Source: Terebella lapidaria
Taxonomy: Eukaryota > Annelida > Polychaeta > Terebellida > Terebellidae
Assembly (NCBI GenBank): GCA_949152475.1
Contig: OX424567.1
Coordinates: 20,175,402-20,239,401 of the forward strand
Reading direction: 5' to 3'
Length of the DNA: 64,000 bases
Both the position numbers and the translations under genes were made by a program. Shown here piece by piece: positions 3,295-59,499 of the stretch. How positions within the stretch are numbered: the first letter of the stretch is position 1; every line of letters begins with the position of its first letter. The notes below the pieces were generated by a model that ran no database searches, was not told where the DNA came from, and saw only the letters and a list, made by a program, of their open reading frames with translations.

Positions 3295-4529
3295 TGTTTG
3301 TTCGTGGACTCTCATCTGTCCTTTCTCAAGAGTTTGAGAAGAATGGAAGACAGGTGTGTATATATTGAAAGTCTCATCCGGATATATGAACATTCTAAGT
3401 AATATTGGTGATCACGGAAATATCAGTTGACCACAGAGCAGTTCATAGAACTCGTCAAATTTGACTGACCAGGGTTGTTTTTAGTGAAAACCTCCATATA
3501 TCGCTCACTGAACCAAGCAATTAAGACACAACGCCGGTCGTTTTTATCGCTGACAGTGATGGAACTTGCTTATCAAATGCGAATAATCATTAGTAATTAT
3601 TGTCAACATCGTGTAGATGGTATTTTGAAAAGTTATTTATGTGTGTTTGTGTGAAGTGGCAAAATCCGATAGGCAACTGCTCGGGCGCGCTCACTGGCAA
3701 CTGCACGGTTGCGCAACCCAAATATGTTGAGGGACGGAGGCACATGTAGGCCTAATGGAGACCCATGTCAATTGTTTCCTTCTGCGGAATATGCCTGATA
3801 TTTTTTCTCTTCACAACAACAGTTATAAATTATGCACACACACGTAAGACGATCGCTTTACCGTTTATTTATAAAACTTGAGCACGTGTTCAATTTGTGT
3901 GTGTATTGAATTTTCCTCACTTCCCCTGTTCACCGATGAGATGTTATATATCCCTCCCACCCCACCGTATTTTAATTGTAGTTAATTCAGAATTATTATC
4001 AGCAGGGTGAATACTAATACCATACCAGTAGGCCACATGGGGAATTTCATTAGGAGGCGAAGCTGCTCCGTAGCCTACAACAAAATTAAGGGCATTTTAA
4101 CATAGTTTTGCTTGCAAGACCCCAGTTGAAGCCCAGGCATCCACTTTGCTTTGGACCATAATATAGAGTATGGTTGCTATGGTGACCAGATACATCTTAT
4201 GAATATAAGCTTAAACACGATAAGTAAGCTATGTTATTCTCTGTTGTGGTATTATTTTGCTTATATGCAAGGGTAAATCATAATTTTCTCGAGAACAGAA
4301 GAAGATACTTAAAAGCTAGCATATTAGCGGTCGCATATTTTCAAACAAAACGATAGGCCCAAATCATACAAACCTAAACCTCATAAAGCCTAAGGTCATT
4401 CGCATAGAGTTCATTTTATGTCTATACGGAGGCGGCATTTTTTATAATTCGCCTCGGGCGGCAGTTCGGTCTGATCTGTCACTGAACTACTCATAATTTA
4501 CCCTTTGTAATGTTTGTTTTGTCCTACAG

Positions 4530-5352
4530 TATATTACTCGACCTCGGGTGTCGGGAGCTCCCGTCAGAGGTGCAGCTGGGAGATGTGTCACAAGTGGAAG
4601 TTTTGAATGAGAGTGGACACAGCGAAGTCGTTGACGTGGTGTGCGTAACTGAGCAGGTTGACCAGGGGAACACCGTCATGGAAGATGAGGCGATCGCTCT
4701 CCCCATCACGGCAACTGCGAGCAACATTCCAGCCACAGATGAAATACCAGTGAACCCCTTTAGATGCCCTAAGTGTGAGATCACGCTCAGCTCTAAATCC
4801 ACCCTCCGACGACACCTGAAACGACACGACGGGTCTCCGCTTCGTTGCAACTTGTGTCCAGCTGAGTTTTTCGAAAAGAATAAGCTGGTAAACCATGTAG
4901 AGGTTAAACATATGGGGTTATTGTTTCGATGTGAGTATGGCGATTGTTGTAAGACGTATCAATCGAAATCTAAATTGAAAGAACACGTTCTCCAACACGA
5001 AGGTGCTTGCAAGTATGTTTGCCATATCTGTGGCCGACAGTATTGTAGTAGTAGCGGGTTAGATGGCCACATAAACTCACATAGTGATAAAAAGCCATAC
5101 ATATGTGACGATTGTGGAAAATCCTATGGACACAAATCCGACCTTCAAAGGCATAAACTGGTTTGTAGTGTAAACTCAGATCCTGAAAAGGTGGAATGTA
5201 ACTTCTGTCTGAAGAAATTCAAGTGTGAGGCGTACTTTAGGGAACACCTAAAGTCCCACACATCAGATGATGAGAAAACATGTGAGAAGTGTGGAAAATG
5301 TTACAAACATCGCTCTTCCTTCTACAAACACCTGAAATCCCACGTGGAATAG
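4530..5352 (+). CDS. C2H2 zinc-finger protein, terminal exon (seven fingers)
   Basis: This is probably a nuclear DNA-binding protein. The exon is preceded by a good acceptor (gttttgtcctacag, ending at 4529) and is entered in phase 2. An in-frame ATG at 4510 lies inside the putative intron, so I do not take it as the start. An acidic leader of about 80 residues is followed by seven C2H2 fingers. Numbered from the ATG at 4510, they lie at about residues 86-106, 113-134, 141-163, 171-191, 199-219, 230-250 and 258-278. Finger 3 has an unusual C-x4-C spacing. Finger 5 ends in Cys instead of the last His. The stop follows the last finger almost directly. Linkers are not the TGEKP type of KRAB-like arrays, so the target cannot be read from sequence. 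A poly(A) signal variant lies at 5800. The N-terminus is not identified. Confidence 0.93.
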
Positions 5353-5875: not shown

Positions 5876-8800
5876 TTACAGATGCTTCATAATTGTAACG
5901 TTCTCGATATCGTTCACACTGGCCCCGAGCTTGTTCGTCGCCAAAATTTTTGATTCGTCAGTTTTGTAACGCTGACTTCTGACAGGCTGGACACCTTTCT
6001 GTGGCTGGTATGGTTTGGACACCGATGACGACTTCATGCGTCTCTTCTCATGTCGTCTCTCCTCAGTGTCGAAGAAATGATCCCTGCGGCAGGACATACG
6101 TGTGAGAGTGATTATTTGTGAAATGAACGTGTTATTAGACAATGTCATTACTGTTGTTGCTTAATACTTACTGAATGAATAGTGTTGCCCTTTCTGACGG
6201 TGGTGGCAGAGTGATTGGCAACCCATGGGGTGCATCTGTTGAGATTTGAGGTGTGAGGGGTTTGAATGGATACACCGATGTTTTCTTCGTCGCCATGTGA
6301 AAGCACCTGATGATACACACCAGCAATACAACACAAAAGTAATACATACATGTCGTAACCTAACAATCATTGTACCAATACCTGTGATTCTAAACAGTAG
6401 AATTACTTTTTCCGATTGGGAACGGGCTCGGGCGTGAATCAGAGCAACCCACGAAACGATCACATCTTAATATTCAAGTAAATATCCTTATTTACTTGTA
6501 TATTATTATTACAACACGTGTTGATATTTAGAGCACATTAAAAAATGCAAGTGCAATAAAGATTATCTACCGGTCTTCATCATTGTATCGGAAGTGGTTC
6601 AATTCTGTCACATGTGACATCATCCTCGGGATTCTGACAGCTTGTGGGCACCCAGTTGCATCCATTTCTGTTAAGTCTCCAAAGAAAGATTCCACAGCCA
6701 GAGTTCCAATAGCTCGATGGTTGTATGTGCCATTCTTCGAAAGCATGTACAAACGAACTCGTGTCTCCACGTTTTGTATGAAGCCACAAAACTGCACGAC
6801 TGGCAGACCTTTCAGGTATAAACCTTGTGGTGGGAATTTGTCAAAAGCCACATCCTTCAGTAAGTAATCTCTCAGATTCTTCATTTGTGTCATTCTCCGT
6901 TGCGCTGGGATTCCTGGAGCATCAATTGCTTCATACCACTGTCGTACTAGTTTGACATAGTCGGCCTCACTAGTGTCGCCATTATCACGCAGGGCCTGTT
7001 CCATGTCTTCTGAGAAAACCTTCTGTGCATGTGCAACGTTTTGCTTGTCGACTATGTCGACTACGAAGGACCTGTTGATCACGTTTGGGTGTGTTTCTGG
7101 TATTTTGTGGAAAGCACTTGGTTTTACACCATCAATTCCTCTGGTAAGAATACGTACCCTGTTATTCACCAGTAGATGACTTGGGTCAATGATGCATGGT
7201 TCATACTTTTTCCTCGTTTGGCTGAACTCTGGCTGAGAGAACATATCATACGTATCATCACCAACTTCAATGGACATCGGGGCCCCTGTTTTGCATTTCC
7301 ACGTTTGTTCTGCAGATTCATATTGATGAGTTGCAATTGCTACTGACAGTGCAAACTTGGGGTAGGTCTTGGCACTCAATTCTCGTATACACAGCTCTCG
7401 TAGCGTCAGTAGTTTTTTGCTCCTTTTCTTGTTAGGTTCTGTTGGAGTAGTTGGATGTCCCAGCAATGTGGAGAGTACTGCAATCAGTGACGCTTTGTCA
7501 CAGTTGCCACGTGGCTCTTTTCGGTCATGTGTCATCTCGCATATAATGATTCGCAGTTCGTTCTTTGTGAATTTTGAAAGTTGATTCGTTTGTAAGAGGT
7601 CAACGAGATATTTGACAGTCACATTCTTCCATTTTTTCTGATTAGCAGATTGGAGTTTCTCCACTATTACATCCAGAAGGGGATTTGTGATAAGTGATAA
7701 TCTCCCAACGTTGTTTCGATCACTGGTTGTCACATCATCATCTTCATCATCATTATCAATGTCCGCAAGGGCGTTTGTGACTATGTCATCATTTCTAGGG
7801 GTATCTGGCTGGTCCAGAACAACTTCAGCGACGACATCACAAGTAACAGCAGCGTCAAGATCACTAGACAGAATTGGTTGATCAATCTTCTCTTTGGTGG
7901 ACTTTTGCTTTCTGTCTGACATGACGTAGGTTTTCACCTTCTGCATGTTGCCGTCTTTCGTCCTCACCAGCAGTGGGCCATCTTCTGTCTTAGATGCAAC
8001 AGCTTCGCCAACATAGAGGGACTTGAAGTAGGTGACCTGCGCTGTCTTCTTCATCGCACATGCATTTTTCCACACATCTTTCTGCAACTCCAGTTTGTTC
8101 AGTGGCTGCCCTTCAATATCACGCACACATATATTGTGCCATTGGCCATCGAAACATTCACATAAAATGCTGATACCATTCTCGTGGCAAGTTTGTTTGA
8201 CTTCATCTGTCATCTGTCTGACGGTCTCGTTGTTTAAGCTGTAGCCTTTCAATGCATATGCCAGCGGAAGATGATGTGGAATACTGGGGTCTGCAAGACG
8301 ATCTGTATCCGTCAGCACGAATGCCAGGAGCTCTGATGCTTTACGGCGGCACAGGAAATTAGCCTCCCTGATGAATTTTTCGGTGGAGCTCATAGCCATG
8401 ACCACGTCTGCTACTTTGAGCTGTTCAGTTGTTGAATCCACGTCTGTGTCTGGTAGCAGGAACGGTGACTCATTGCCAGGTATCCGTTCCTCTGGGTTGT
8501 CTGATTTTTTCAGGGATGGAACTTCGAGAATGAGTTTCACATTTTCGTGTATGAAACGCTCGATCTTATGGTTGATCATAGACACTGCATCACTCCTCCT
8601 GGTTGGCACTTTGAGAGCACTGCGCCCATTGCCATATACTCGATCCACCTCTTCTCTGACGAGTCGCCAGAGTTCTTCATCAAATGTGACCTCCAGGACG
8701 GTGCAACTACTACTGCAATAACTGATGAATATACCACTCGATGTCGACTTGGAAGCCATCTCAGCCATCATCTGGCACACATACCACTTTGGAAGCTTGT

Positions 8801-10682
8801 AGTACACTGGCAACTTGTAATCCGAATCGATAGGACATTTCACTTCTAGGATACTGATAATATCTTGATTCGGTAGTCTCAGAGTGCCGTCCGTTGACAC
8901 GACCATGAGTTTTTCACCACCTTCCTTTGTGATGAAACTGCAGCCTTCTTCAACAACATAACAGTCATCGAATAGGAATGGAACCACCAGTGATGCAAAG
9001 GTTGCAATGGCATTGTCTTCATTTTCTGTACCATGATCGAATCTTGCCTGGAGTTCAGGTGTGACTTCCTCTGGCTCTTTGTCGCCTCGCAAGACTTTTA
9101 TGTGCTCTTTCTGATCTTTCAATTGCCGCAATCCCAATGCTTTATGCAATGTGCTGCCACTTACGGGTGCTTCCTTTCGGTAATTCAGCCACTCAGGGGT
9201 CCTCTGTTTTGTGTACTCGGGAAGCTGAAATTCAGGAGGCAAATCTTCAGGTTTCTTCAACAGCAAAACGTTTTCTTGATGACTCATATCAACAAACGAC
9301 CCTGGCACATATGCATGGTGTGCCTGTCCGAGCTCACTGCCAATGCAACATATAGACCTGTTGACTGACAGACCAGTTGTGATCGCAGATTTTGACTGAT
9401 ATACTGTCGCTTGTGTTTTGCTGAGGGCATACTTGTACTTGTCCTGAAAGGCAAACACCGATACATGTGACGTGGTGCTAACTACCATCGAATGGGTAAC
9501 TAGACATTTATATCCTGATAGAACATTGGTACCAGAGTTGGATATTCACGTGGAATATGGACCAGAACAAGAATCATATATTATTCGTCACTTACTTCTG
9601 AAAGATCATCATTTTAACTCTCACCTTCATATCTGGGTTACGATCAGCAAGATTTTCAAGCTTCTGTCTCAGTTTCTTCTGTTGAAACTCAAGTTCCCTC
9701 AAATTCTGCAAGTTGTTGCTCGTCGCAGTAACTAGCTTTGCCAATTGTCCTTTGATACTTTGCTTCAGTTCCGTGTCAAAGTCCATGAGTACTTTTGAGG
9801 ATTCTAGGTCACTAACTGCTTCGGCTATCTCTGAACATAGTGCTAAGCTTTCTGCAATCTGTTCTTGCTTCATTTTTTTGTTTGGCATCTCATGACCCCA
9901 AAGGTCAATATCTCCACGAGTGTCGTCTAACCCCTGAGCAACTTTCTTGCCATCAACTGCGATGACAAACTCTTTTTTGTCTTTATCAGGTTCAAGAAGA
10001 GCCAGAACGTCTGGAAGAATGCCAGGGTTTATTTCCTTTGGTACTGGATTTGAAGCATCATTAGTTCGAAGAACGCTCTGACTTGGTACAGCAAAATTGC
10101 ATTTGGATTGCACTGGATCGTAACTCTTGTCACTACATTTACCCCCTTGACCTGCATTTTTTGGTCCAGCAAATAGACGGAGGGCTTTTCCTTTCAGAAG
10201 TCTGAACACAACTTTCCAGAATTTTAGAGTTTGTTTTGAATAGGTCATGTAGGTAGTTGATATCAGAGAAGAATACTTAGCCCGCTCCAGACACAACAGT
10301 AACGATAAATTATCCGGTTGTAGGCGACCATCACAAAGCACGTTAATCAAGGTCATGAAATCGCTCAGCACCCCTGCTTGGTATAGTAAGTGACAGAGTT
10401 GTCCTGCGTCCTGAGACAGCTGCTTGGCACATTGATCTGGGTGTGATACGTCAAATAGTCGTCTCCATCTTCTAAGATGTCTTTTCTTAACTGGTGCTCG
10501 AGACAAGACTTGTTTGGAAGATTCCGACATTGAAGTAATTGGTGTTTTGTCTGCTTTCCGTGCGCTACCTTCTGTAGAAGATCCCGGAATAGATTTTGCA
10601 CCCTCATATTCTCGCCTTCTCCTCTTCCGAGCAAGATATAGAGTGAGTTGACTATTTTTTCTTTTCCTCTTTGTATTATCCA
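5876..10682 (-). CDS. YqaJ-like nuclease / transposase-like multi-exon protein
   Basis: Four exons join with matching phases: 9625-10682 (enters phase 1), 6571-9443 (phase 0 in, 2 out), 6172-6306 (2 to 2) and 5876-6083 (stop). The sum is about 1,425 codons. Exon 1 has a basic N-terminus, a KEFVIAVDGKKVAQGL-GDIDLWG block and a C-terminal coiled coil. Exon 2 carries a YqaJ-type PD-(D/E)XK core: RTPEWLNYR, then STDG, then LEVKCP with E and K two apart, then a Q helix. It later has NHRAIGTLAVESFFGDL, which resembles the last acidic block of some transposases. The last exon has a KGVQPVR-KTDESK tail. Similar two-part proteins occur as uncharacterised, probably element-derived genes in many invertebrates. 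No stop or frameshift is visible, so the copy looks intact. The start is uncertain: an upstream exon is expected from the acceptor at 10683, but an in-frame ATG at 10701 is an alternative. Confidence 0.82.
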
Positions 10683-10739
10683 CTGGGGAAATATGAACCA
10701 AAGGTCAAATAATAAAGGAACACATTATTGTCCCATTTG

Positions 10740-23507: not shown

Positions 23508-26500
23508 TTAGTCATCTTTTTCGATGAGCTCCTTCTGTTTATGCCATAACTGTTCTCGGTACGTCCCTGGTTGTCTCATGCAGGCTTCAATGAAATCCAT
23601 CGCACTGTCCATTGGTGCGTAGTCTTCCCTCATGGCCGAATCTGACACGAAATACGATGTCGTATCTCTTTAAACGCAATATACACCGTGAGAACAATCT
23701 TTTCTTTAGAATTTGATAACTTGTCGTTTTGATCAGATTTTGTGAGTTTCTGCAAGTCATAGAACAGAAGCAATATGCCAACATTCATAAAAATCGTACA
23801 AGTCTGTAAAATTTGAAACATTATTTGATTTAGCTATCATTGGATGCCAGTTCAACAATTGATCCATACATTTAGGCCTAAAAAAAATAAATTTCTGTTT
23901 CTCGTCCTCCTATTTTTTCAAAACTGGGTAGGGAGGGACTTCTTATTTTTTATTTTTCATTTTGCAAAAAATACCGTCCTCAGTTCAAGAAAAAATTGAG
24001 TAGGGAGGCACTTTTTATTTTTTGTTGGACGACATTTCACACATATTAAAAATAAATTCGATTTATTGATTGATTAAAAAAACACTTTCGCACAGACTCA
24101 TTCAAGTCCAAACAAATCAAGCCTTTTGAAATGAAATCATGTGTAACACATGACTTTAATGATTTCATTTCTAGAGGGTTGATTTATTTGGGCTTTAAAC
24201 CTCTTGGCCGGGCACATTGGCACTACTGGTGTGCCATCATTATAGCAGTCAGCACATACAGGATGATTCTGTGTACTAGTAGTATTATTATCAAAAACCG
24301 TCAGTTGATACCATATTTCAATGATGAGTAATTGTTGAGAACCGTTCTATCAGTTAATATGTCCTTTGAAGTATATCATGAGGAATATAGTAAATCAATT
24401 CTTGATCACAATGTATTATTACATACACGTAACGACATAGAATAACTGTGTTTGAAAACTGGTAGCGTCTTTGTCTCATTTGGTGGAGAGTGAAAACAAA
24501 GAGTTAAGTTGAATATATGCCTAAGTTGCATGCTGTGATTCGGTTTCTCGATCATTCACTATACTCAAAATAGTGGCGGGAACACTTTTCATTTTTTATT
24601 TGAGAATTGCAAATAATAATATCCGGGAGGCTGCTTTCAAACACAGGCGGGCGGGGACGAGAAACAGAAAATTAATTGTTTTAGGCCTTAGGTCTAATTC
24701 TCACCGCTACTACGCCAAACTGTCATGTGCTTCTGTTCCGGCCAGTACTCGACAGCGAGATCCGCCACAGTGATGACTGGCAGCTGACTGCGTGAGCCAT
24801 GCGCCATGAACAACACATCAACATCGCCATTCTCGAAGTCCTCCCATTTTCTACCTAATGACATAAAACAGATAATAATCATCACACCTTGCCAAAGAAC
24901 CGGATACATGGAGAACTTGGAATGTGACATAGTCGAGAAAGTGAAGGGGTAACTAATGTTTCTATTGCAAAATGTTGTGTTTCTATTGCAAAATGTTGTA
25001 TATTACGTTTATTATTGGAATCATCAAAATCTGACTATTGGTGGCAATAGATTGATTCTTACATCTAAACACGTACAACAATATATTAATATTGTGTTGG
25101 ATGAGTGGACAACACGAACCAATATATCCACATCGTGCGTATAAGGCTAATTGGTTTGATATATATGTAAAAACAATAGAATTTAGTATTGCATGTGTTT
25201 CTTCTGCAACTGTGCATACTTTTGATTTTCATCACGGAGCTGAGTCTTGCGCCATACCACAGTCCAGTGGTCATATCCCGCAGCTCAGGGATACATTTCA
25301 TCCAATTCATCAGATATTCGCCAATCATTTGAAGCTTGTAACAGGACACAACGACCTTCATATTGGGATGTGACAGCTTCCAGTCAACGAGAACAGTTTC
25401 GAGCTCTTTCAGGCTGTAGCATGGAGCATCAAAGTGGGCATCATGGTATTCTGAAATTAAAAGTAATGAAAAAAACCATCGAGCGTAACGATGTTCATAT
25501 GCTTTCGGGGAAAAGGTAATCTTTGGACTCGACGGCCAAATGTTATTCAAAATCACTACAGTATATTTACGAGACCAAAACCGCGTAAGAGTCCTCAGGA
25601 ACATGCGCATGTGTCCATTTTCAAGCTGTGTCATTCTTGCGACTTCACCCTCAAGAAACTCGGCGGCATATCGATCCGAGCAAGTGACAGACAACATTGC
25701 AGCCTCGTGGTGTGCCTACGAACACAATAAGATGGCTGAACAGATGATAGAAAATAAGGGCTACTTATCAAAGACTGTCCAGTCGTTTGTACACTCATAT
25801 AATGTATACAACGATGTATTTCAGTTGTGACTGGCTTATATTCAGTTAGTAGGGGCCTGTATAATTAAACATATCACCAGCATTATCTGATACGCTGCTT
25901 CAATGACGTCAGACATATCGTCACTGAGAGTAGACGTCTCTGGGGTTTTTTTGACGTTGTGCAGCCAGTTGCGATAGGTGTGCGCGAAATGCTCGCTTGG
26001 AGGGGAGTTGAGAACACTAATCGCTTTGCCGCTGAGCGAGTTCATCAGTGAGATCCTCCCTGAAAAAACATACATAAATACATTATTTATCATGTGCATG
26101 ATTTTGTGCGACAAGTAAAACCGAAGCTCCATCGTCGAGGGTTTTTGTCTCTCAATGACATATATCTAGATCAAATTCAAGGTCTGAAAAATATTTAATA
26201 TACAACATTTATACATCTCCTCCACTGCTAGTTTCGTGACTAAAGACCAAATTGCATATTCAATGGTGGACTCGAGCATAATGCCGTATTTCGGAACTCA
26301 AAATCCTTATTTGTTAAGTTCAGGGTCGTTGCTTTCAAAGGAATGAGTTCAAAAGTGTACTTTGGGTAGTAAGTTAAAATTGATCGATGAATGAAAATTC
26401 AGATGGCCTGGCCTGTGAGGTCCCGCTGTCACCGATACATCTGACTTTTTTCTGATGAGCGTTAGCGTACCTTGTAGTTTGTATTCTTTCAAAGTCGACA

Positions 26501-28451
26501 TGATCACTTCCAGGGAACTTCCAAGCCGCTGCAGAAACTGTGAGCGGAGAAGTCCTGTAAGACCTCTTCGCTCTGTTGCAATCGCAGTAAATACATTTTG
26601 CAATCATAATTATTGCATGCAAAAGAATGGGTCGACATTTTATACTGCTGACGCTACCTTCGGTGTAGCGCTTTGTGCGCAGCTCCATTAGGTTGTTGGG
26701 ATCTTTGACTCTGACGATATGGTACAAATCGAAGATGGAACAACACGTCATGACACACTCACGAAACTTAGTCTCTGTTTTGTATGTTGATTTCCCCAGT
26801 CTTGATGCGAACCCAATAATCTGCAAGACATAGGCCTACTGTGACTGCGTATAAATATATACATCCATGGTGTATCATATGAATATTGAAAATAAGATAC
26901 ATATATACAGACACTACGCATACCTGAGGCAAAGATTTGTCAGAGTGCTCGAGTTTTGCTCCAACATAATATCGAAGAAAGAGTTTACAGTAGGGATGTC
27001 CGCCGTGCGCCAAATCGCAATCATCTACGAATATGTGCGTGAAGACACCAGATTCCGGAGGATCACACTTTCCATCTTGTATATGCTCCAGAAAGAGCTG
27101 TCCAGTCATGACAATGATGTCATGTTCCGCTAGTATGTCAGAGAAGGAGGCGTTGTCTTTGTTAAGATCAGCGCTCATACCCAGACTGTAATGCGCTGAT
27201 AGGTATTTCCTATAAAGCTGCCATCTGCCTACTACACTTTCCTTTCTGGTCGTCAAGTGGCAAATCTTGTTCTTCTCATTGCTGGTGTTTCCTTGTAATA
27301 TCATCTGGATATTCAATATGGTTATGATCACTATTCATCAGCTCAAGGTCTGAGAAAGGCTACCGGGAAAATGTACAGTGTCAGACATACAATATTTTCA
27401 GTAAAATAGCTGCCCTGACATATTAAATCCACTAAAGATCAAATTCAAGGTCATCAAAAGAACCAACAGAACTCTATCTGTTCTGTACAATTTACATTAT
27501 TCATGTCGAATGTTACCTCGACGATTATCACTCAAGGTCATCTCAGGTCAAGTTCAAGGTCACCAAAACATGCTCCATATACGACTTCCTATCACAAACC
27601 TGAAGTCTATGTGCAAGCGTTTTGGTCCAAGTGACCAATGACTGTTTTGACCTTTCAAGGTCATCGAATACCAAATAACAGGTCATATATGACTTCGCAT
27701 ATGAAAGTGCCAATATCTAAGCTCTATGTTCGAGCCTTCTGCGAATACAGTTGTATTGTGGCAGTTCCCATGAAAAAAAAGACCAACAATTCTTGTTCCA
27801 AGTCAAAAAAATATTTTCAAAGGGAGAATTTTTTTTTGGATGGAAATGCCTCGTATCGAATAGGAAAGTGATTTGGGACAAAAAAAATTCGTCGACCCAT
27901 CAAAAAATTCAAATGGCCACCACACGCAGAGTGGCGAGTCAAGGGCAACGAAATTGATACATTTCACCAAGGTACATGATGGAAACATTTTAAAACAGAA
28001 AACTCAAATATGATCATACAATTTTTTAGAAAGCGGCCGTCGAAGTCCAAACTTGGTCGTTTTTCGTCAAAAACGGCCGCCATTTCAAAACAAAATAATA
28101 AAAAGTAAAAAATACCTCCTCTTGATATATGTTTAGTCATCTTTGTGCAAAACTTCAGAAATATTCGACTGTAAACTTTAAAGATACAAATATGGACGAC
28201 GACGACGCAATGCCCTGCAAATATCCTAAGGCATTATAACCAAACATTAAAATATACATGTGTTTACAATAAGATACGACATCGCTGTCTCACCTCGGCT
28301 AGCTTGATAGCCACGTGCCCCTTGCCACTCCGCCCATGGGCCACAACGATGCTGTTCTGATTGTGTCCGCTAAGAACCCCGTCCACTAACTCCTTTTGGT
28401 AGCCTCGCAGTACCAGCTGTTCAGGGTCCACGTCTGGTGGCTCGTCAATGC
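23508..28451 (-). CDS. RIG-I-like DExD/H helicase core with degenerate ATPase motifs (nine exons)
   Basis: Exons: 28294-28451, 26924-27304, 26658-26820, 26471-26554, 25878-26059, 25571-25715, 25220-25450, 24705-24854 and 23508-23641. All borders are AG/GT and every phase matches, giving 542 aa. Order of blocks as in RLRs: LRGYQKEL (Q region), Walker A region GRSGKGH, an IIVMTGQ block (motif Ib region), motif II as VDDCD, LPQ-IIGFAS (motif III), the Hel2i helices, a KVVVSCYKLQ motif IV block and a VDVLFMAHGSRS motif V region. A pincer-like helical end (YREQLWHKQKELIEKDD) precedes the stop. In family terms it should clamp dsRNA. Walker A lacks the Ser/Thr after Lys, DECH is DDCD and motif VI is missing, so ATP hydrolysis is doubtful. 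No C-terminal zinc domain follows. The first exon needs an upstream phase-1 exon: the cGLR linker exon fits, and no CARD was found. Confidence 0.88.
24950..25085 (+). repeat. Degenerate copy of the 364-bp repeat family, in a helicase intron
   Basis: Contains 'tgtttctattgcaaaatgtt', a duplicated piece of the same, and 'ggtggcaatagattgattctta'. These match the reverse complement of the array at 33.84-37.11 kb. It lies in the intron between helicase exons 7 and 8. Confidence 0.65.
27420..28250. repeat. Diverged AGGTCA-type and 'aaaacggccgccat' repeats in helicase intron 1
   Basis: Degenerate copies of the same dispersed repeats as at 10.7-12.1, 28.7-29.1 and 37.4-38.4 kb. They fill the intron between helicase exons 1 and 2. 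No coding content was seen. Confidence 0.7.
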
Positions 28452-31603: not shown

Positions 31604-32010
31604 TTACACATCATCTACTGCGGGGAAGTTTTGAAATTCATTCATCGATATATCCGCAAATTTCGTATCTTCTCTCTTCTGGAAATCACGCCAATTATTG
31701 TAGTGCTTAGGGTTTTGCCAATCTGGTGATCGGAGGAGGAAGCCACGTATCTTGATCATTGGTATTTGTTTGTACATTTCTATATAGGTCACCAGAATGC
31801 CAATGTCTCCGTGACATTTTCGACAGTATAAATCATCGGTTTTCTTGAACTTTTTGTCTTCAAATGTTTTCTCCTCAGAATACTCCTCAACTGCGCATTT
31901 TTTAACGAAGGTTTGGTCCAGAATGACCAGATGGTTCCCATGAGCCACACGTACGTCAGCTGGTGTAAACATCACTTGTCTGCAATTCTCACATAGGAAT
32001 GTCAAGGCTC
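31604..32010 (-). CDS. RIG-I-type C-terminal (regulatory/RD) zinc domain, terminal exon
   Basis: About 135 residues enter in phase 1 after the acceptor tggtttcag. The zinc knuckles are CENC near the start and CRKC in the middle, i.e. the four Cys of RIG-I, MDA5 and LGP2 domains. Other family marks are DVRVAHGNH, the Cys in FVKKCAV, IPMIKIRGF (which includes the Lys that contacts RNA ends in RIG-I) and NNWRDF. The stop follows a short tail of about 15 residues, as at the end of RLRs. The domain binds dsRNA or 5'-triphosphate RNA ends. It normally follows an RLR helicase, but here the helicase exons lie 3 kb downstream on the same strand. It may therefore be the last exon of a lost RLR copy captured by the cGLR. 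Confidence 0.93.
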
Positions 32011-35000
32011 CTGAAACCAGTAGGGTGCAGCTTAATAAAACAAATTAGCCCAAGGGCTAAGAAGGGTTACCGGACAATGTTTTACATCTTAGATATTAAC
32101 CGATTTGTCCCGTGACCTTGAAAATAAGGTCAAATTCAATCAAAGGTCAAATTCAGTCACAAGAATATTCAGCATATATCATTTCATGTCCACAATTGAT
32201 TCCTAAGCTGCAAAGTCGATCGACAATGAGCAAGGTTTTAACCATTTTGTGCTTTGACCTTGGAAATGAGATTAAAGGTCAAATTCAAGGTCATGAGAAT
32301 ATTCAGCATATGTCACTTCCTATATGTCAACAATTTTTTCCTAAGCTTTAAAGTTGATAATAAGCAAGATATTAGCCACTTTGTGCTCTGCCTTTGAAAA
32401 TGAGGTCAAAGGTCAAATTCAAGGTCATGACAATATTAAGCATATATCATTTCCTATAGGTGCTCAATTGATTGCAAACCTGTAAGGTCAATAAAGTCCA
32501 AAATGAGGCATTTTTCGTAAAAAACGGCCGCCATTTTCCGAAAATCGGAAAACTAAAAAAATCCTTCCTTGGCAATATCTTTAGGTATTTTTCTGCAAAA
32601 GTTCAGAAAGATTTGACCGTAAACTTTAAAGATAAAAATGTGAACGATAGACGGACGCCGGACGACAGACGGACGACGGACGCAACGCCACGGCAATAGG
32701 TCATCGGACCAAAGGTCGGTAACCTTAAAAAACTACTACAAAGGCTAAGAAAAGTTGCAGGAGAAATGTATATTGTTGAGGGACAACTATTTCCCTCCCA
32801 AAATTGCCGTTTTGACCTTTCAAGGTACTAGAGATCAAATTCAAGGTCGCCACTGAAACAATATATGTGAGTTCCCATTTATATATGCCGATTTTCAAGC
32901 TCTGTCTTGAAGATTTATGAGAATGTATTCCGCACAGCTTTCATTATTACAGAAAAGTGGATGAAATATTTTTCAATGGCGAGAAAAAAGTTCTTGGCTG
33001 GAAATGGCTGAAATCAGATCGAGACTCAATTTCGGATAAACATTTTTTCGCTGACAGGTCCCCAAATCAAGGGAATCTTCTGGAACAAAAATCCTAAAAC
33101 AGTCTGAGCACTTTTTTAGACTGGATGCTCTTCGGTCATTGAAGACCACTGGGCACTGGGGTGTGTCCCCCGTAGCCCTAACATCCCTGTCGTTCCAAAT
33201 ATATTAATGCAGAAATAAGATCATGACAACCCAATCAATGTCCTTCAACACTGTCCGTAATAACTGTTTCAAAACTCAATTATTGAACTAACTATTTCTT
33301 TTTTACTAGCTTTTTTTTCACCACATAATGTTTCATGAGAAATCCTTGCTCAATCCCCGCCCTTACTGATGATTTCAATATCCACATAATGTTAATTTTC
33401 TAGTTGAAATATGGTGGGCTAGTGATATTAACTAATCAGTATTATTATAACAGCCATACAATATCTGATTTGTCTCGCTTTGTCCAATAATGAATGTTTA
33501 TCATCTTATCTATAGATTTAACCAGTGAAATTCATGTTAGTTTATTCAGTGAAAATAACACTAACACAGTAATAAAATCAATCGTAGGGAAAACATTTTC
33601 CTTAATGAGCCCAGTAACAAAAGTTTCCAGTCTCAAGTATTGTAACTGTGCTCATTAATTAATGTTAACTTTTTAAGAAATATGACCAATATTAATATCT
33701 CCTGGACAGAACCAGTTCCTTTTTGTGCTGAATAATCAATGTTCTTCACCTTAACTATTTCATTGGGCTGAATAATAGACTGAGTTAATGTTAACTCAGT
33801 CTTAACTGAGTTAATATTGACCAATAGGATGGTCAATGTAAGTATCAATCTATTACCACCAATACAATCAGATTTTGATGATGCCAATATGAAACGTAAA
33901 GAACAACATTTTGCAATAGAAACAAAGCCCAACCAAATAGTTTATCCAAAGACACACTGGCGTCATCAGGGGCAGACAGTGTGTTAAATGTAGTTGTTTC
34001 TACTGTACACCTGATGGAATTAGTATACAACTGCCCAACAACCTATGAAAATAATTTAGAAATCCGAAACTAACCCCATGGAATAGATACATGACAAGTA
34101 CAAAAGTACCCAATCACAAGCCAGAAGGCTACTGAGTTGATGGTATCCTCGGGGACAGATTTAACGTCCGCCAGCAGTGACACCGACTCAGTGGTATGAA
34201 TGTAAGTATCAATCTATTACCACCAATACAATCAGATTTTGATGATGCCAATATGAAACGTAAAGAACAACATTTTGCAATAGAAACAAAGCCCAACCAA
34301 ATAGTTTATCCAAAGACACACTGGCGTCATCAGGGGCAGACAGTGTGTTAAATGTAGTTGTTTCTACTGTACACCTGATGGAATTAGTATACAACTGCCC
34401 AACAACCTATGAAAATAATTTAGAAATCCGAAACTAACCCCATGGAATAGATACATGACAAGTACAAAAGTACCCAATCACAAGCCAGAAGGCTACTGAG
34501 TTGATGGTATCCTCGGGGACAGATTTAACGTCCGCCAGCAGTGACACCGACTCAGTGGTATGAATGTAAGTATCAATCTATTACCACCAATACAATCAGA
34601 TTTTGATGATGCCAATATGAAACGTAAAGAACAACATTTTGCAATAGAAACAAAGCCCAACCAAATAGTTTATCCAAAGACACACTGGCGTCATCAGGGG
34701 CAGACAGTGTGTTAAATGTAGTTGTTTCTACTGTACACCTGATGGAATTAATATACAACTGCCCAACAACCTATGAAAATAATTTAGAAATCCGAAACTA
34801 ACCCCATGGAATAGATACATGACAAGTACAAAAGTACCCAATCACAAGCCAGAAGGCTACTGAGTTGATGGTATCCTCGGGGACAGATTTAACGTCCGCC
34901 AGCAGTGACACCGACTCAGTGGTATGAATGTAAGTATCAATCTATTACCACCAATACAATCAGATTTTGATGATGACAATATGAAACGTAAAGAACAACA

Positions 35001-38000
35001 TTTTGCAATAGAAACAAAGCCCAACCAAATAGTTTATCCAAAGACACACTGGCGTCATCAGGGGCAGACAGTGTGTTAAATGTAGTTGTTTCTACTGTAC
35101 ACCTGATGGAATTAGTATACAACTGCCCAACAACCTATGAAAATAATTTAGAAATCCGAAACTAACCCCATGGAATAGATACATGACAAGTACAAAAGTA
35201 CCCAATCACAAGCCAGAAGGCTACTGAGTTGATGGTATCCTCGGGGACAGATTTAACGTCCGCCAGCAGTGACACCGACTCAGTGGTATGAATGTAAGTA
35301 TCAATCTATTACCACCAATACAATCAGATTTTGATGATGCCAATATGAAACGTAAAGAACAACATTTTGCAATAGAAACAAAGCCCAACCAAATAGTTTA
35401 TCCAAAGACACACTGGCGTCATCAGGGGCAGACAGTGTGTTAAATGTAGTTGTTTCTACTGTACACCTGATGGAATTAGTATACAACTGCCCAACAACCT
35501 ATGAAAATAATTTAGAAATCCGAAACTAACCCCATGGAATAGATACATGACAAGTACAAAAGTACCCAATCACAAGCCAGAAGGCTACTGAGTTGATGGT
35601 ATCCTCGGGGACAGATTTAACGTCCGCCAGCAGTGACACCGACTCAGTGGTATGAATGTAAGTATCAATCTATTACCACCAATACAATCAGATTTTGATG
35701 ATGCCAATATGAAACGTAAAGAACAACATTTTGCAATAGAAACAAAGCCCAACCAAATAGTTTATCCAAAGACACACTGGCGTCATCAGGGGCAGACAGT
35801 GTGTTAAATGTAGTTGTTTCTACTGTACACCTGATGGAATTAGTATACAACTGCCCAACAACCTATGAAAATAATTTAGAAATCCGAAACTAACCCCATG
35901 GAATAGATACATGACAAGTACAAAAGTACCCAATCACAAGCCAGAAGGCTACTGAGTTGATGGTATCCTCGGGGACAGATTTAACGTCCGCCAGCAGTGA
36001 CACCGACTCAGTGGTATGAATGTAAGTATCAATCTATTACCACCAATACAATCAGATTTTGATGATGCCAATATGAAACGTAAAGAACAACATTTTGCAA
36101 TAGAAACAAAGCCCAACCAAATAGTTTATCCAAAGACACACTGGCGTCATCAGGGGCAGACAGTGTGTTAAATGTAGTTGTTTCTACTGTACACCTGATG
36201 GAATTAGTATACAACTGCCCAACAACCTATGAAAATAATTTAGAAATCCGAAACTAACCCCATGGAATAGATACATGACAAGTACAAAAGTACCCAATCA
36301 CAAGCCAGAAGGCTACTGAGTTGATGGTATCCTCGGGGACAGATTTAACGTCCGCCAGCAGTGACACCGACTCAGTGGTATGAATGTAAGTATCAATCTA
36401 TTACCACCAATACAATCAGATTTTGATGATGCCAATATGAAACGTAAAGAACAACATTTTGCAATAGAAACAAAGCCCAACCAAATAGTTTATCCAAAGA
36501 CACACTGGCGTCATCAGGGGCAGACAGTGTGTTAAATGTAGTTGTTTCTACTGTACACCTGATGGAATTAGTATACAACTGCCCAACAACCTATGAAAAT
36601 AAGTTAGAAATCCGAAACTAACCCCATGGAATAGATACATGACAAGTACAAAAGTACCCAATCACAAGCCAGAAGGCTACTGAGTTGATGGTATCCTCGG
36701 GGACAGATTTAACGTCCGCCAGCAGTGACACCGACTCAGTGGTATGAATGTAAGTATCAATCTATTACCACCAATACAATCAGATTTTGATGATGCCAAT
36801 ATGAAACGTAAAGAACAACATTTTGCAATAGAAACAAAGCCCAACCAAATAGTTTATCCAAAGACACACTGGCGTCATCAGGGGCAGACAGTGTGTTAAA
36901 TGTAGTTGTTTCTACTGTACACCTGATGGAATTAGTATACAACTGCCCAACAACCTATGAAAATAATTTAGAAATCCGAAACTAACCCCATGGAATAGAT
37001 ACATGACAAGTACAAAAGTACCCAATCACAAGCCAGAAGGCTACTGAGTTGATGGTATCCTCGGGGACAGATTTAACGTCCGCCAGCAGTGACACCGACT
37101 CAGTGGTATGAATGTAAGTATCAATCACTGAATGTAATTTGGATATTACTACATCCAAAACATCTTTAACATCCATAGTATTGGCCAAACTTTGTTCGGG
37201 GGCTACACAATTGGCCGTCAATGTCAAAAATTGCTGGTCGTTCCGTCCAAAACTACCACCAATTCGAAAAAAAAGCCTCAAAATTAAAATAACTCTTTCT
37301 CCAATTATTTTCACGCATTTTCATACAAAGTTTCAGAAAGAGTCAACCGTATTTAAAATTTAAACATAAAATTAACCTAAGGGTTAAGAATGGTGAGTGG
37401 AGAAAATTATAGTGTTGAGCCACAACTGTTTTTTTTTCACCAAGATTGTGATTCGAGGTCAAGTTCCAGGTCACTACTGAATCAGTACATGTGATTTCCC
37501 ATTTGATTTGCGTCAAAATTTATGGTGACTTTTGGACCTCTCAAAATTATAAAGTTCAAAATCAAGGTCACCGTCATATATGACTCCCTATTTGAAAGTA
37601 CAAATAACGCATCTCTATCTCCATGCATTCCAGGAGCACACTCCACATTGCTTCCATAATAAAGTACAACTTTTTCTTGAAAGTATAAAGGCCTTTTTTG
37701 GCTGGAAATGGTTGAAAACAGAGAGTGGCTTGATTTTCGCCCACCTGACGGGAAATAAAAATTGCCGCCACACGCAGACCGACAATTCAAAGGCAACAAA
37801 ACTCATACACCTCACAGGGGTACACGGGTAGGCTAGACCAATACATCGATAAGATATACAATGAACATATTTCGAGGAAAAGGCCGAAAAGTCCAAAAAT
37901 TGTCGTTTTTTGACAAAAGAAGCCGTTGAAGGTCAAACTCAAAATCACCACTGAAACTGCAATATAAGATTCCCGCTTGAACGTGCCAATATTTAAGCTA

Positions 38001-40054
38001 CATCTTGAAGTGTTCTAGGAGTTTACTCCACACATCTTGGTTATGAAGGAAAAAGTGGATGCAATTTCCAGTCCAAAAATTTTGTCAATGTCGATAAGAT
38101 AATTTTTTCTGTTGGCTGGAAATGGCTCAAAACAGAGAGTGACTTGATTTCGACTAAAAAAAATTGTCAACAACCCATCGAAAAATCAAAATTGCCGCCA
38201 CGTGCAAGACCAGTAATTCAAGGGCAACAAAGGTACCTCACAAAGGTAAGTAAGGAGAATGTTTTGAATCAAACATTTCAAAACTGTCTGAACAGTCTTT
38301 GAGAAAAGGGCCGTCAAAGTCATAAATTGACCCTTTATCAAGGAAGATAACGGCGAGTAAAATGGCGAGTAAGACTGAAACGCGTTGTCGAATATTTCGG
38401 AATTTCAACATCGAAGGTCGCGACTGAGAAAGGACACATACAGAATATACTCACCCTGGCGCTGAGAGAATGTGCTCTTGGGGCTTTGCTGAAACATAAT
38501 CAAAACGTATTTGTATGCTTAAAGAAACCCGGAAAACGTTATGGTTTCCTTTCAGGCTAAGAGAAACATACGATAACGACTATCTTGGATTTTGAACTGC
38601 TACAGACCATCCAGTGCCAATGTACGAGTATAATATTACTGATCCAGTGACTTATATACATGTAATGTAATGGTGGAACTTACGTGGTTTTGGTATCTTT
38701 GCACGATACTCTCGCATTGCTGACGCGCAGTCTCAACATATTGTAGCATAACATTGTTGTCAGTGATATGTGCGCCCCAAGACAGTGTCTGAATTTTAGT
38801 GTTGAGGAAGTAATGTGGGATTTCGGTTGCCTCGTTGGAGAGTTCTTCAAACACAGCCGCCAAAAGCAAGTTCATGCACTGGTTTCTTCTGTCGGATGGC
38901 TTGAAGGCGCCGGGAATCTTTGCACCCTTCATCAAGCTTGCATGCTTCAATGCATATGAGCGAATTGACAAAGCTGGCTTTGGGAGTTCGTTGTACTCCA
39001 CGGCCTTTTTCTCTGGTAGGAATATGTGTGCGTATCGCATGGCTTTCATGATGTCCTTTCTCAACGCTTCCTTGTCTTCTCCGTCCACTGAATTATGATA
39101 AAAACATAGAGCATGGAGCACCCATTTTGTTGCATCAGACTCATCAAGGTGAGCAGGTTCCTGAGCAGCTCTTTGGAAATCACTAACGATGAGCTTCTGT
39201 AATTTGATGAGACGCTTCACTGGGGCAGTTTCGTACAAGTTTTCTACCAGGAACGCTTCCAAGGATGATGTACTCAACTGCCACAACTTCTCTTCTGGGA
39301 ACTTTGGGACGAGGTGGACCTTCCCAGTCAGATCAAACTGTGTCTCGCTGTTATCTTTCCTGATCGGCTGAAACTTTTTTTCTATTTTCTCTATCTCAAA
39401 ATCTGGTTTAAGACGGAGTGCTGTTGTCATATCAATCGAGATGAAGTCTAGATTTTTCCACTTGAATAGCAGAGTGGTGGCTGGACCATTTCTCCGGATT
39501 CCACTGTATCTTGGGCTCGCGAAACCTGCGTGAATCATATTTCTGGGCATTTTGATCCTATCGGTCAAGAACAAAGAATCTATCTCGTCTCTCAGAGAAT
39601 CACTCATCTGTCGGGGAAGGATGCTTTCATTGTCCATGTCATGAACTAAATATTCTCCCGGATTATCCGCTGATTCAAACAGTTCCATGTCTTGCAACCT
39701 AATCTCGTACAAGTAGTCCACCTCGTTCAGATTACCTGGTCTTGTTCCATCGCGAGATGAACCGACCGGGACGAATTTTCCTTTATGTTTGATGTTTTCA
39801 GATTGCTCAAGATTTTCTTTCAACTGATCGATGATGTCTCGAACAGCTTCCAGAACCTCGTGCAAGTGTTTCCGATTCTCATCTGTCGGCTTCAGTTGAT
39901 TCTCTAATTCGTAAATGGTTCTCACCTTTCCTGAGCTTCCACAGACAATTTCCTGGCCAGAGTCTGTGGCCTTGGGACTCTCATGTAACTCAGCAATAAT
40001 TCCATCACAGTAGTCTCGCAGCTCTGACGCAACATCTGCCCACTCCTTTTCCAT
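31604..40054 (-). CDS. cGAS-like nucleotidyltransferase fused to a RIG-I C-terminal domain (gene model)
   Basis: Three coding segments join in phase: the 457-codon Mab-21/cGAS-like part of exon 38684-40062 (ATG 40054), the linker exon 38455-38488 (34 nt) and the terminal exon 31604-32010 with a stop. The product is 603 aa. Borders are CAC/GTAAGT, tttcag/CAAAG, CCAGG/GTGAGT and tggtttcag/GAGCC. The cGLR family makes cyclic dinucleotides after nucleic-acid binding, and the RIG-I C-terminal domain recognises RNA ends. A fusion would put an RNA-end sensor directly on a second-messenger synthase, probably in the cytosol. The joining intron is 6.4 kb and holds a 364-bp satellite. The fusion rests on splice signals and phase only: the two exons could belong to neighbouring transcripts. 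The same linker exon could instead splice to the helicase exon at 28451. Confidence 0.72.
32040..33120 (+). repeat. AGGTCA satellite and related dispersed repeat, in the fusion-gene intron
   Basis: Three satellite units (about 32.09-32.48 kb) include a perfect DR1 at 32403-32415. A 'aaaacggccgccat...gacggacg' repeat (32.5-32.7 kb) and a further diverged copy follow. Confidence 0.8.
33839..37114. repeat. Nine tandem copies of a 364-bp unit
   Basis: Copies start near 33839, 34203, 34567, 34931, 35295, 35659, 36023, 36387 and 36751. I saw only isolated differences between copies (for example near 34750, 34976 and 36603), so the array is young or homogenised. Each unit has 'atgaatgtaagtatcaatc' (a perfect donor-like GTAAGTA on the + strand). 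On the - strand each has an open stretch that reads TFNTLSAPDDASVSLDKLFG. Diverged single copies occur at about 25.0, 48.4-48.7 and 52.0-52.2 kb, so the unit derives from a dispersed family. The array sits in the intron between the linker and RIG-I-domain exons. Confidence 0.95.
37115..37314 (-). other. Exon-like open segment next to the 364-bp array
   Basis: Directly beside the array a - strand frame runs without stop (for example SLANTMDVKDVLDVVISKLH) into the first 364-bp unit (TESVSLLADVKSVPEDTINS). The composition looks protein-like and may show what the repeat family came from. I recognise no domain and saw no convincing splice sites. Confidence 0.25.
37360..38400. repeat. Dispersed repeats in the fusion-gene intron
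   Basis: Two diverged copies of the 'aaaatggccgccac...gattcaagggcaac' family with AGGTCA-like pieces. They lie directly downstream of the linker exon. No coding content. Confidence 0.7.
38455..38488 (-). CDS. 34-nt linker exon between cGLR and RIG-I or helicase exons
   Basis: The acceptor (atgtttcag) and donor (CCAGG/gtgagta) are both strong. It enters in phase 0, exactly matching the cGLR exon exit, and leaves in phase 1. It codes QSPKSTFSQRQ plus the first base of a Gly codon, a Ser/Gln-rich flexible linker. Its exit phase fits both the RIG-I-domain exon (32010) and the first helicase exon (28451). Confidence 0.72.
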
Positions 40055-40062
40055 GACAAGTT
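38684..40062 (-). CDS. Mab-21/cGAS-like receptor (cGLR) exon
   Basis: One long exon follows an acceptor (ctgtcatttcag), with 8 nt of leader before ATG 40054. Numbered from that Met, residues 1-90 are helical and charged. GSS lies at 98-100. After an activation-loop-like stretch, NEVD gives E111 and D113, and ISID gives D208. These are the three metal-binding acids of cGAS, where the family pattern is NEFD and SVDI. The C-terminal Mab-21 helical half is present (RSYALKHASL, then IPHYFLNTKI). The length of 457 aa is normal for a cGLR. The vertebrate His-Cys zinc loop is absent, as in other invertebrate cGLRs. Upstream coding exons are not required by the reading frame. A plain Mab-21 developmental protein is the alternative, but the intact triad favours an active synthase. 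Confidence 0.9.
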
Positions 40063-56139: not shown

Positions 56140-56660
56140 TCCAACGTAATATCATGTTATGTGTTTGTTAGGAATTCTGTCCCATTCCTCCGTCAAAGCC
56201 AGGCCCTAATCTCGCAAGTTTGCAGGTTGGACATTCCTGCGATTCACAGCACGATCCAACTCATCCCAAAGGTGCTCTATTGGGTTCGTATCCAGGCTGG
56301 CGGAGGGTTGGGGTATGGCCAGAACGTCACGTTCTCGGAGGAATTCTTGCACAATGTGAGCTTTATGAGCTGGTGCATTATCTTGTTGGAGTCTGAAATT
56401 GTTCTCGAACATCCCCACGGCGAATGGAAGCAGTTGGTTTTGCAGGATGTCCGTGTACACGGCGCCAGTCACGTTCTGATCCAGGATGACTAACGGATTG
56501 ACACAACTTGCGCAGTAGGCCCCCATATGTGCATCGAACCTCCACCTGCAGCCACATTCAACTGGATATTTCCATCAAGTAGTTCCAACACATCTGCGGA
56601 CTCGGAGTCGACTATCAACGGGGTAGAGCAGAAACCTGGATTCGTCGTGAAGACAACGTG
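56140..56660 (-). pseudogene. Tc1/mariner-type transposase fragment, decayed
   Basis: The - strand frame contains the Tc1 catalytic blocks: NFRLQQDNAPAHKAHIVQEF (with the second catalytic Asp) and LDTNPIEHLWDEL (the SPDLNPIE block, altered). NLRD and, after an in-frame stop, LTEEWDRIP follow. The region upstream, near 56530-56650, keeps only frame-shifted traces of the first catalytic block. Stops and frameshifts mean it is inactive. Terminal inverted repeats were not found. Confidence 0.85.
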
Positions 56661-58149: not shown

Positions 58150-59095
58150 ATAGGTCAGAATATTTAATGATACCCCTCATGTAACACAGGCGTGATACCC
58201 ATAGTTAGAAGTGACAAAAATAAACACAGGAAACGTTGGTTACAATCATCATTAAACAGAAAAAACAGAATGTTTTATGATACACCTCATGTAGCATAGG
58301 CGTGATACTCATGGTTAGAAGTGACAAAAATAAACACAGGAAACGTTGGTTACAATCATCATTAAACAGAATAGAACAGAATGTTGTATGATACACCTCA
58401 TGTAGCACAGGCGTGATACTCATGGTTAGAAGTGACAAAAATAAACACAGGAATCGTTGCTTACAATCATCATTAAACAGTAAAAAAGCAGAATGTTTTA
58501 TGATACACCTCATGTAGCACGTGTGTGATACTCATAGTTAAAAGTGACAAAAATACAACGGGTATCGCTGGTTACAATCATCATTAAAGAGTAAAAAACC
58601 TAATGTTTTATGATACACTCCATGTCCCACAGGCGTGACAATAGTTAGAAGTGACAAAAATAAAACAGGAATCGTTGGTTACAATAATCATTGAACAGAA
58701 TAAAACAGAATATTTTATGATACACCTCATGCAGCACAGACGTGATACTCATAGTTGGAAGTGACAAAAATAAACACAGGAAACGTTGGTTACAATCATC
58801 ATTAAACAGAATAAAACAGGGTATTTTATGATACACCTCATGTAGCACAGACGTGATACTCATAGTTAGAAGTGACAAAAATACAACGGGTATCCTTGGG
58901 TACAATTATCATTAAACAGTAAAAAAAAAACCGGAATGTTTTATGATACACCTCATGTAGCACAGGTTTGATACTCATATTTAGAAGAGACAAAAATACA
59001 ACAGGAATCGTTGGTTACAATCATCATTAAACAGAAACATTTTTTATGATCCACCTCATGTAGCACAGGCGTGATACTCATAGTTAGAAGTGACA
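58150..59095 (-). repeat. Tandem array derived from the 3' end of the lectin exon (about eight units of about 115-120 bp)
   Basis: Each unit has 'tgatacacctcatgtagcac', 'gatactcatagttagaagtg', 'acaaaaataaacacagg' and 'ggttacaatcatcattaaac'. On the - strand each unit repeats an NDDC-x-x-R-[FY] coding fragment plus 3' UTR sequence matching the end of the lectin exon at 59084-59140. The terminal codons of that exon were therefore probably the founder of the array. Confidence 0.85.
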
Positions 59096-59322
59096 AAAAT
59101 ACAAAGGGTATCGATGGGTACAATCATCGTCGTTCCACTCCCAGAGCCACTCCTTGAGAGCTAGTACACAGTCATCCGAACTCGAGCTTGAATATGGTTG
59201 GCCAACATGCCAGTGTGTCCAGGTGACAGGATCACCACTCGGGTACCAGTAGAAGTCGTACTGACCGGCGCCATTTGGACGTCTGGCTCCAATCCAGAAC
59301 GTCCTCGTTAGTTCCATGGCAA
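59084..59322 (-). CDS. C-type lectin domain, terminal exon
   Basis: The exon enters in phase 1 after the acceptor ttgctttcag. It codes the second half of a CTLD: FWIGARRPNG, FYWYPSGDPVTWTHWHVGQP, DDCVLALKEWLWEWNDDDC and a final YFCHF then stop. The WIG, WxxGxP and W-x-W-x-D-D-C marks are those of the long-loop and beta-core end. The sugar-contact tripeptide seems not to be a clean EPN or QPD (GQP instead), so sugar specificity is unclear. Exons for the first half were not found upstream (59.3-61.5 kb), so the gene may be partial or its other exons may lie beyond large introns. A frame with a hydrophobic N-terminus at 59500-59600 is a weak candidate for the signal-peptide exon. Confidence 0.8.
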
Positions 59323-59499
59323 CTGAAAGCAAGTGCAATTTCAAATATTCTATGTCCAACAAACAAGTATATACACGGGTGGAATAAAAACACGAAAACA
59401 GCGTATTATCGATTTCGACAATCACGATAAATACTGCAATAATGATAATTAAATTCCATGATATACCATGCTGCTCGGGCTGTGTACCTCACGTTGACT

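Follow-up and report, generated by a model that had tools for sequence, protein, structure and literature searches.

The window, which is the whole stretch of 64,000 nucleotides of Terebella lapidaria DNA that was analysed, carries on its minus strand an exon for a cGAS-like nucleotidyltransferase and, downstream on the same strand, an exon for a RIG-I-type C-terminal RNA-binding domain (CTD). A putative 34-nt exon and a tandem repeat array lie between them, and the pieces of a divergent RIG-I-like helicase follow beyond the CTD stop. Elsewhere there is a C-type lectin domain exon upstream on the same strand (59084-59488; Pfam 23.9 bits, cut-off 22.6), a fragment of a DDE_3 transposase (56206-56574, minus strand), two long open frames on the minus strand (6567-10704), one with a YqaJ recombinase domain, that probably form a mobile element, and a plus-strand C2H2 zinc-finger exon with several fingers (4486-5352). 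Pfam scans of three minus-strand frames, run to look for N-terminal domains such as CARD or death and for other exons, found only the DDE_3 transposase between 40 and 64 kb and only the CTD between 20 and 35 kb. For 35-40 kb and 1-15 kb, one frame each was covered. These scans are weak negatives because short exons are lost in them; the lectin exon was missed and was found by direct scan.

The enzyme exon (38684..40062, minus strand) begins at a strong acceptor at 40062 and sits in an open frame that runs from 40129 to 38636. From the ATG at 40054 to the donor it measures 1371 nt, or 457 codons, with the boundary CAC/GTAAGT. The initial annotation had described a 457-codon exon with an intact E111, D113 and D208 triad and a GTAAGT donor, all of which were found in the sequence. 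The hallmark of a cGLR is a nucleotidyltransferase core with a GS motif and an ExD...D triad. The triad residues are invariant in two related proteins, P0001 and P0002, and a test for the GS motif returned GSS at residues 98-100, common to P0001; P0002 begins after that point. P0001 shares 35% identity with the window enzyme across 431 alignment columns and P0002 shares 36%. As the two relatives are 48% identical to each other over 75% of the query, P0001 is closer to P0002 than the window protein is.

Comparison with known structures points to cGAS. A phmmer search of the PDB gave weak matches to 15 sequences (E 0.018-0.48), 13 named cGAS and two “uncharacterized protein”; the top match, 4jlx (E=0.018), is one of the latter, while chains named cGAS begin at E=0.09. 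A three-sequence profile reached cGAS at E=0.0055, with 14 of its 15 matches at E<=1 named cGAS. The stretches matched between profile and cGAS are collinear through the triad region to the PHYFL/HYFI motif, each of them low-scoring. With Foldseek, the best 50 of 270 matches (E<=10) were all cGAS, the best at E 4.8e-7, the underlying model being poor (pLDDT 46.8) and the superpositions having TM 0.22-0.34 and rmsd 15.5-21.5. The Mab-21 family gave no Pfam match at E<=1 for the window enzyme; Mab-21_C was reached at E=0.14 by one member of the three-sequence relative set. The label “Mab-21/cGAS-like” thus holds in its second half, through the PDB, the profile and Foldseek on a poor model, and lacks a Pfam match for its first. 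The enzyme is well supported as cGAS-like.

The enzyme is acidic, with a pI of 5.6 (core 6.1), as are P0001 (5.6) and P0002 (5.8). cGAS proper carries a zinc thumb of the form H...CC...C. The CC dipeptide of this thumb is absent from the enzyme, which has five cysteines only (16, 38, 317, 393 and 447). Nucleic-acid-sensing cGLRs have been described as having a pI >8.5 (PMC9980059). Given its acidity and the missing CC motif, the core alone is therefore a poor candidate for a nucleic-acid sensor. Some acidic cGLRs are described as auto-active, with ligands possibly other than nucleic acid (PMC9980059), and an acidic core would also be in keeping with a cGLR whose ligand is not nucleic acid. For an acidic enzyme core, the gain of an RNA-binding domain would make sense.

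The CTD exon (31604..32010, minus strand) is intact and open across 134 codons, and it starts at the domain edge. The description of a full RIG-I-type zinc domain with a stop is borne out: Pfam RIG-I_C-RD (PF11648) matches at 67.4 bits against a cut-off of 25.6, all four zinc cysteines are kept (the equivalents of C810, C813, C864 and C869), and the stop lies at 31604. The best PDB match is 4a2v, a RIG-I entry (E=1.5e-10), and every match at E<0.1 is either a RIG-I, MDA5 or LGP2 chain or an entry with RNA helicase as its title. The identity of the domain is certainly above chance; modelling the CTD by itself gave a pLDDT of 36.5, and that model was set aside. Four of the seven RNA-contact residues are kept (H830, F853, K858 and K888) and three are changed (H847Y, K861D and K907N), by the numbering of human RIG-I. 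On these residues RNA binding by the CTD is plausible, and a preference for 5′-triphosphate is doubtful. The “RNA-end recognition” put forward initially is likewise uncertain.

The CTD exon is the nearest recognisable coding exon downstream of the enzyme on the same strand, and with a CTD profile no other copy of the domain was detected in the window (next match E=0.27). Human RIG-I was compared with the 2183 window ORFs of >=20 aa, and two were matched at E<=0.5, namely the CTD and an exon of the downstream helicase. Over the 32 kb upstream of the CTD, a span that includes the gap between enzyme and CTD and 24 kb upstream of the enzyme, this search detected no exon of an RLR helicase. The result bears on the idea that the CTD, being of RLR type, closes an ordinary RLR gene that has its helicase exons outside the window and the cGLR nested in its intron. 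Nested genes and long introns occur, but that intron would probably exceed 32 kb because no helicase exon was detected over this distance, and such an arrangement is improbable.

The enzyme donor is in phase 0 and the CTD acceptor in phase 1, so that direct joining is out of phase and a fusion needs the 34-nt exon. The putative linker exon (38488..38455, minus strand), preceded by AG and followed by GTGAGT, encodes QSPKSTFSQRQ plus one nucleotide and leads from phase 0 to phase 1. Its size, both splice signals and its phase were confirmed as first reported, and it yields the 603-aa path. When eight GT-AG combinations near these coordinates were enumerated, two were open, giving 603 aa, or 602 aa through the acceptor at 32007, which is very poor (-6.0 bits). 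Site strengths were scored with weight matrices. The linker-exon donor ranks in the top 0.16% and its acceptor in the top 3.5%, and the CTD acceptor (5.5 bits) in the top 0.5%.

A phase-correct mini-exon with every site at least as strong was found in none of 17 other 6.6-kb stretches. Phase-correct mini-exons of equal total score arise in 38 of 300 dinucleotide shuffles of the intron, and 3 of the 32 overlapping 6.7-kb stretches of real sequence taken from elsewhere have one; in any phase, the counts are 90 of 300 and 14 of 32. Because they arise in this way, the junction chain alone is weak evidence, and the linker exon is only weakly better than chance.

The enzyme donor at 38684 ranks in the top 1.1% of GT sites (3.9 bits). 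The alternative end is a read-through tail of 15 codons past the donor and then a stop (38636..38683, minus strand). A stronger donor-like site, AAG/GTGAGA at 39926 on the minus strand (6.6 bits), lies within the enzyme coding frame, and since it is unusable in the full product, site strength proves little. This site may mark an alternative isoform or may be a chance occurrence.

When read through, GTNAGN can encode V followed by S or R and nothing else. Both relatives carry V[SR] within one residue of the donor position, as KK/VS in P0001 and KT/VR in P0002, where the frames read ...KK-VS-LR and ...KT-VR-LM against NH-VS in the window enzyme. The pattern occurs at 5 of the 861 positions of P0001 and P0002, the two donor-aligned ones counted. 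P0001 as recorded stops two residues past its VS, without a P0002-like tail. The window tail, ITLHVYKSLDQ, resembles LMLHLFTSFNK of P0002, so that 38636 may be no more than the natural end of the enzyme. A likeness score this high is reached by 15 of 3914 genomic tails (own tail counted), as it is by 209 of the 20,000 letter shuffles, about 0.4-1% by chance. The V[SR] pattern and the tail likeness were both spotted post hoc, so neither is a clean test. The notion that V[SR] conservation settles the intron was dropped, as the likeness to the P0002 tail counts against it. The sequence leans, with some support, towards the GTAAGT after 38684 being a real donor that is probably used.

The tail gives weight to a reading in which the enzyme is a stand-alone cGLR, ending at 38636 as a single main exon or in a short exon of its own. 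The CTD would then be an orphan exon that outlasted duplication and loss within an RLR array, the downstream helicase being another member of that array, and the locus would be an ordinary innate immune gene cluster. P0001 speaks against this, since it is the closer relative of P0002 and yet has no tail, as do the donor-like V[SR] of both relatives and the intact CTD frame, which is unexpected in a relic. No AATAAA or ATTAAA was found within 5 kb past 38636, which tells against an end there, or within 1.9 kb past the CTD stop, which tells against an end at the CTD; these absences are uninformative.

The downstream gene consists of eight open pieces (24705..28451, minus strand like the CTD exon), the first of them 3.2 kb past the CTD stop, that follow the RIG-I helicase order in a spliced alignment. 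Just one piece, 27304-26924, is significant alone, matching the RIG-I helicase chains 3tbk (E=2.5e-6) and 4a2p (E=2.8e-6) in the PDB and human RIG-I by tblastn (3e-8). The other seven rest on the alignment, and several of the splice sites predicted for them have low or negative scores. An extension of the alignment to pieces at 24.1-20.3 kb was distrusted and left out. Motif I reads GRSGKG and motif II reads DDCD, whereas V and VI could not be recognised. The gene may be an ATPase-dead RLR or may be decaying.

An RLR is defined by the combination of a DExD/H helicase and a CTD in one protein. No CTD belonging to this helicase was detected in the window, and no helicase exon to go with the CTD exon was detected in the gap behind the enzyme or over the 24 kb upstream of it. 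Because a helicase without a detected CTD adjoins it, the CTD exon could be what is left of a tandem RLR array, or a module borrowed from one. This divergent helicase gene directly downstream was absent from the initial annotation and could provide an alternative origin for the CTD exon. Its position on the same strand favours separate genes, and bivalve RLRs can lie in tandem; of the 13 in C. gigas, 8 are reported to do so (PMC8998645). It has also been reported that 87% of cGLRs stand alone, without an extra signalling domain (PMC9980059). Against separate genes, no helicase remnant was detected adjoining the CTD upstream. On balance, two separate genes are a serious contender, at somewhat under an even chance.

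The helicase also offers another splice target, in that the cGLR and linker exon could skip the CTD and join the acceptor at 28451, leaving the CTD as an alternative last exon. This acceptor has the same phase as that of the CTD, but a phase match has a one-in-three chance and the site is weak (1.7 bits vs 5.5 for the CTD). Such splicing is very improbable, and the least probable arrangement weighed here.

The proposed intron spans 6.7 kb and is repeat-rich. Repeat comparison revealed a tandem array of nine 364-bp units (33835..37126), six mutually identical and three at 99.7%. Partial copies of the unit occur at 52.1, 48.5 and 25.0 kb. An interspersed repeat at 32036-32494, with relatives near 2.6, 13.8, 21 and 43 kb, comes to within 26 nt of the CTD acceptor. 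The near-identical array brings a risk of misassembly, whereby the cGLR and CTD halves may have been misjoined across it. The window has no N runs, however, and the resolution of nine separate copies suggests that long reads were used; nothing points to a misjoin, though one could have occurred, and an assembly artefact is improbable.

Searches for relatives recovered the enzyme part. Of the 5908 candidates compared with the 603-aa product, P0001 was the sole match at E<=0.01, and over the enzyme part only. A profile of the enzyme pair gave at least two matches, from a capped set of 7996 candidates scored, and none of the four candidates in a search with the CTD alone scored. For loci related to the aligned cGLR pair, 215 pattern matches in genome contigs and 243 in viral contigs left none confirmed, as did 19 and 3, respectively, for the CTD.

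Taken together, both domains, an intact triad, the zinc cysteines and an in-frame path are present. The likeliest single reading, still held tentatively and at under an even chance, is a fusion in which the enzyme exon is spliced to the 34-nt exon and then to the CTD exon, giving a protein of ~603 aa. The joining of enzyme and CTD is less well supported than the identity of either part. The splice path, the V[SR] of the relatives, the intact CTD at a domain edge, the lack of an upstream RLR helicase and the acidic pI of the enzyme count for it. The chance-prone linker exon, the P0002-like tail, the 39926 site, the repeats, the missing polyA signal, the enzyme-only match to P0001 and the preponderance of stand-alone cGLRs count against it. 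The 603-aa fusion first proposed therefore stands in its domains, triad, phase and splice signals, and is weakened by a linker near chance, the P0002-like tail and the downstream helicase as an alternative.

In animals, cGLRs and RLRs are regarded as distinct sensing systems. In the fusion, the enzyme core, acidic and without a zinc thumb, would grip nucleic acid poorly by itself, and RNA capture would fall to the CTD, which would bind double-stranded RNA but perhaps not 5′-triphosphate ends, because three contact residues are changed. The CTD could gather copies of the protein on RNA or relieve inhibition, either of which would switch on the synthesis of a cyclic dinucleotide that signals to STING. 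An RLR gene of the same cluster was perhaps the source of the CTD exon; no RLR body that could claim it was detected upstream. A bolder proposal, which is rather unlikely, sees an RLR taken apart at this locus: its tail given to a cyclic-dinucleotide synthase, here an acidic cGLR that leaves nucleic-acid recognition to the RIG-I-type CTD, and its ATPase-eroded helicase, for which no CTD was detected, kept alongside as a scaffold. If the fusion is real, a single protein would form a direct route from RNA to STING, exon shuffling could rewire both sensor and output, and there would be a hint of how acidic cGLRs without a known ligand find one.

No paper on a cGLR-RIG-I CTD fusion was seen among the open-access titles and abstract openings listed, a body of text that lies outside most subscription journals. 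Compared with the cGLRs of Li et al. (PMC9980059), the window enzyme shares the ExD...D nucleotidyltransferase and the cGAS-like Foldseek result, obtained with a poor model, but it is acidic and has neither a CC zinc-thumb motif nor a Pfam Mab-21 match at E<=1. The extra cGLR domains named in the accessible part of that survey are TPR, ankyrin, death and several cGLR units, and the RIG-I CTD is not among them there. The oyster protein HEPN-Ig-DED-TRADD-N-cGAS-TPR (XP_011454060.1), for which the accessible text of PMC8195603 does not mention a RIG-I CTD, is alike in joining a cGAS domain to other immune modules in a marine invertebrate. RLRs with grafted N-terminal domains (PMC8998645) are alike in their C-terminal RIG-I_C-RD, but that survey chose genes that combine it with a helicase, which the proposed 603-aa protein lacks. 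In those RLRs, domain grafting has been tied to exon-intron changes, and tandem arrays occur (PMC8998645).
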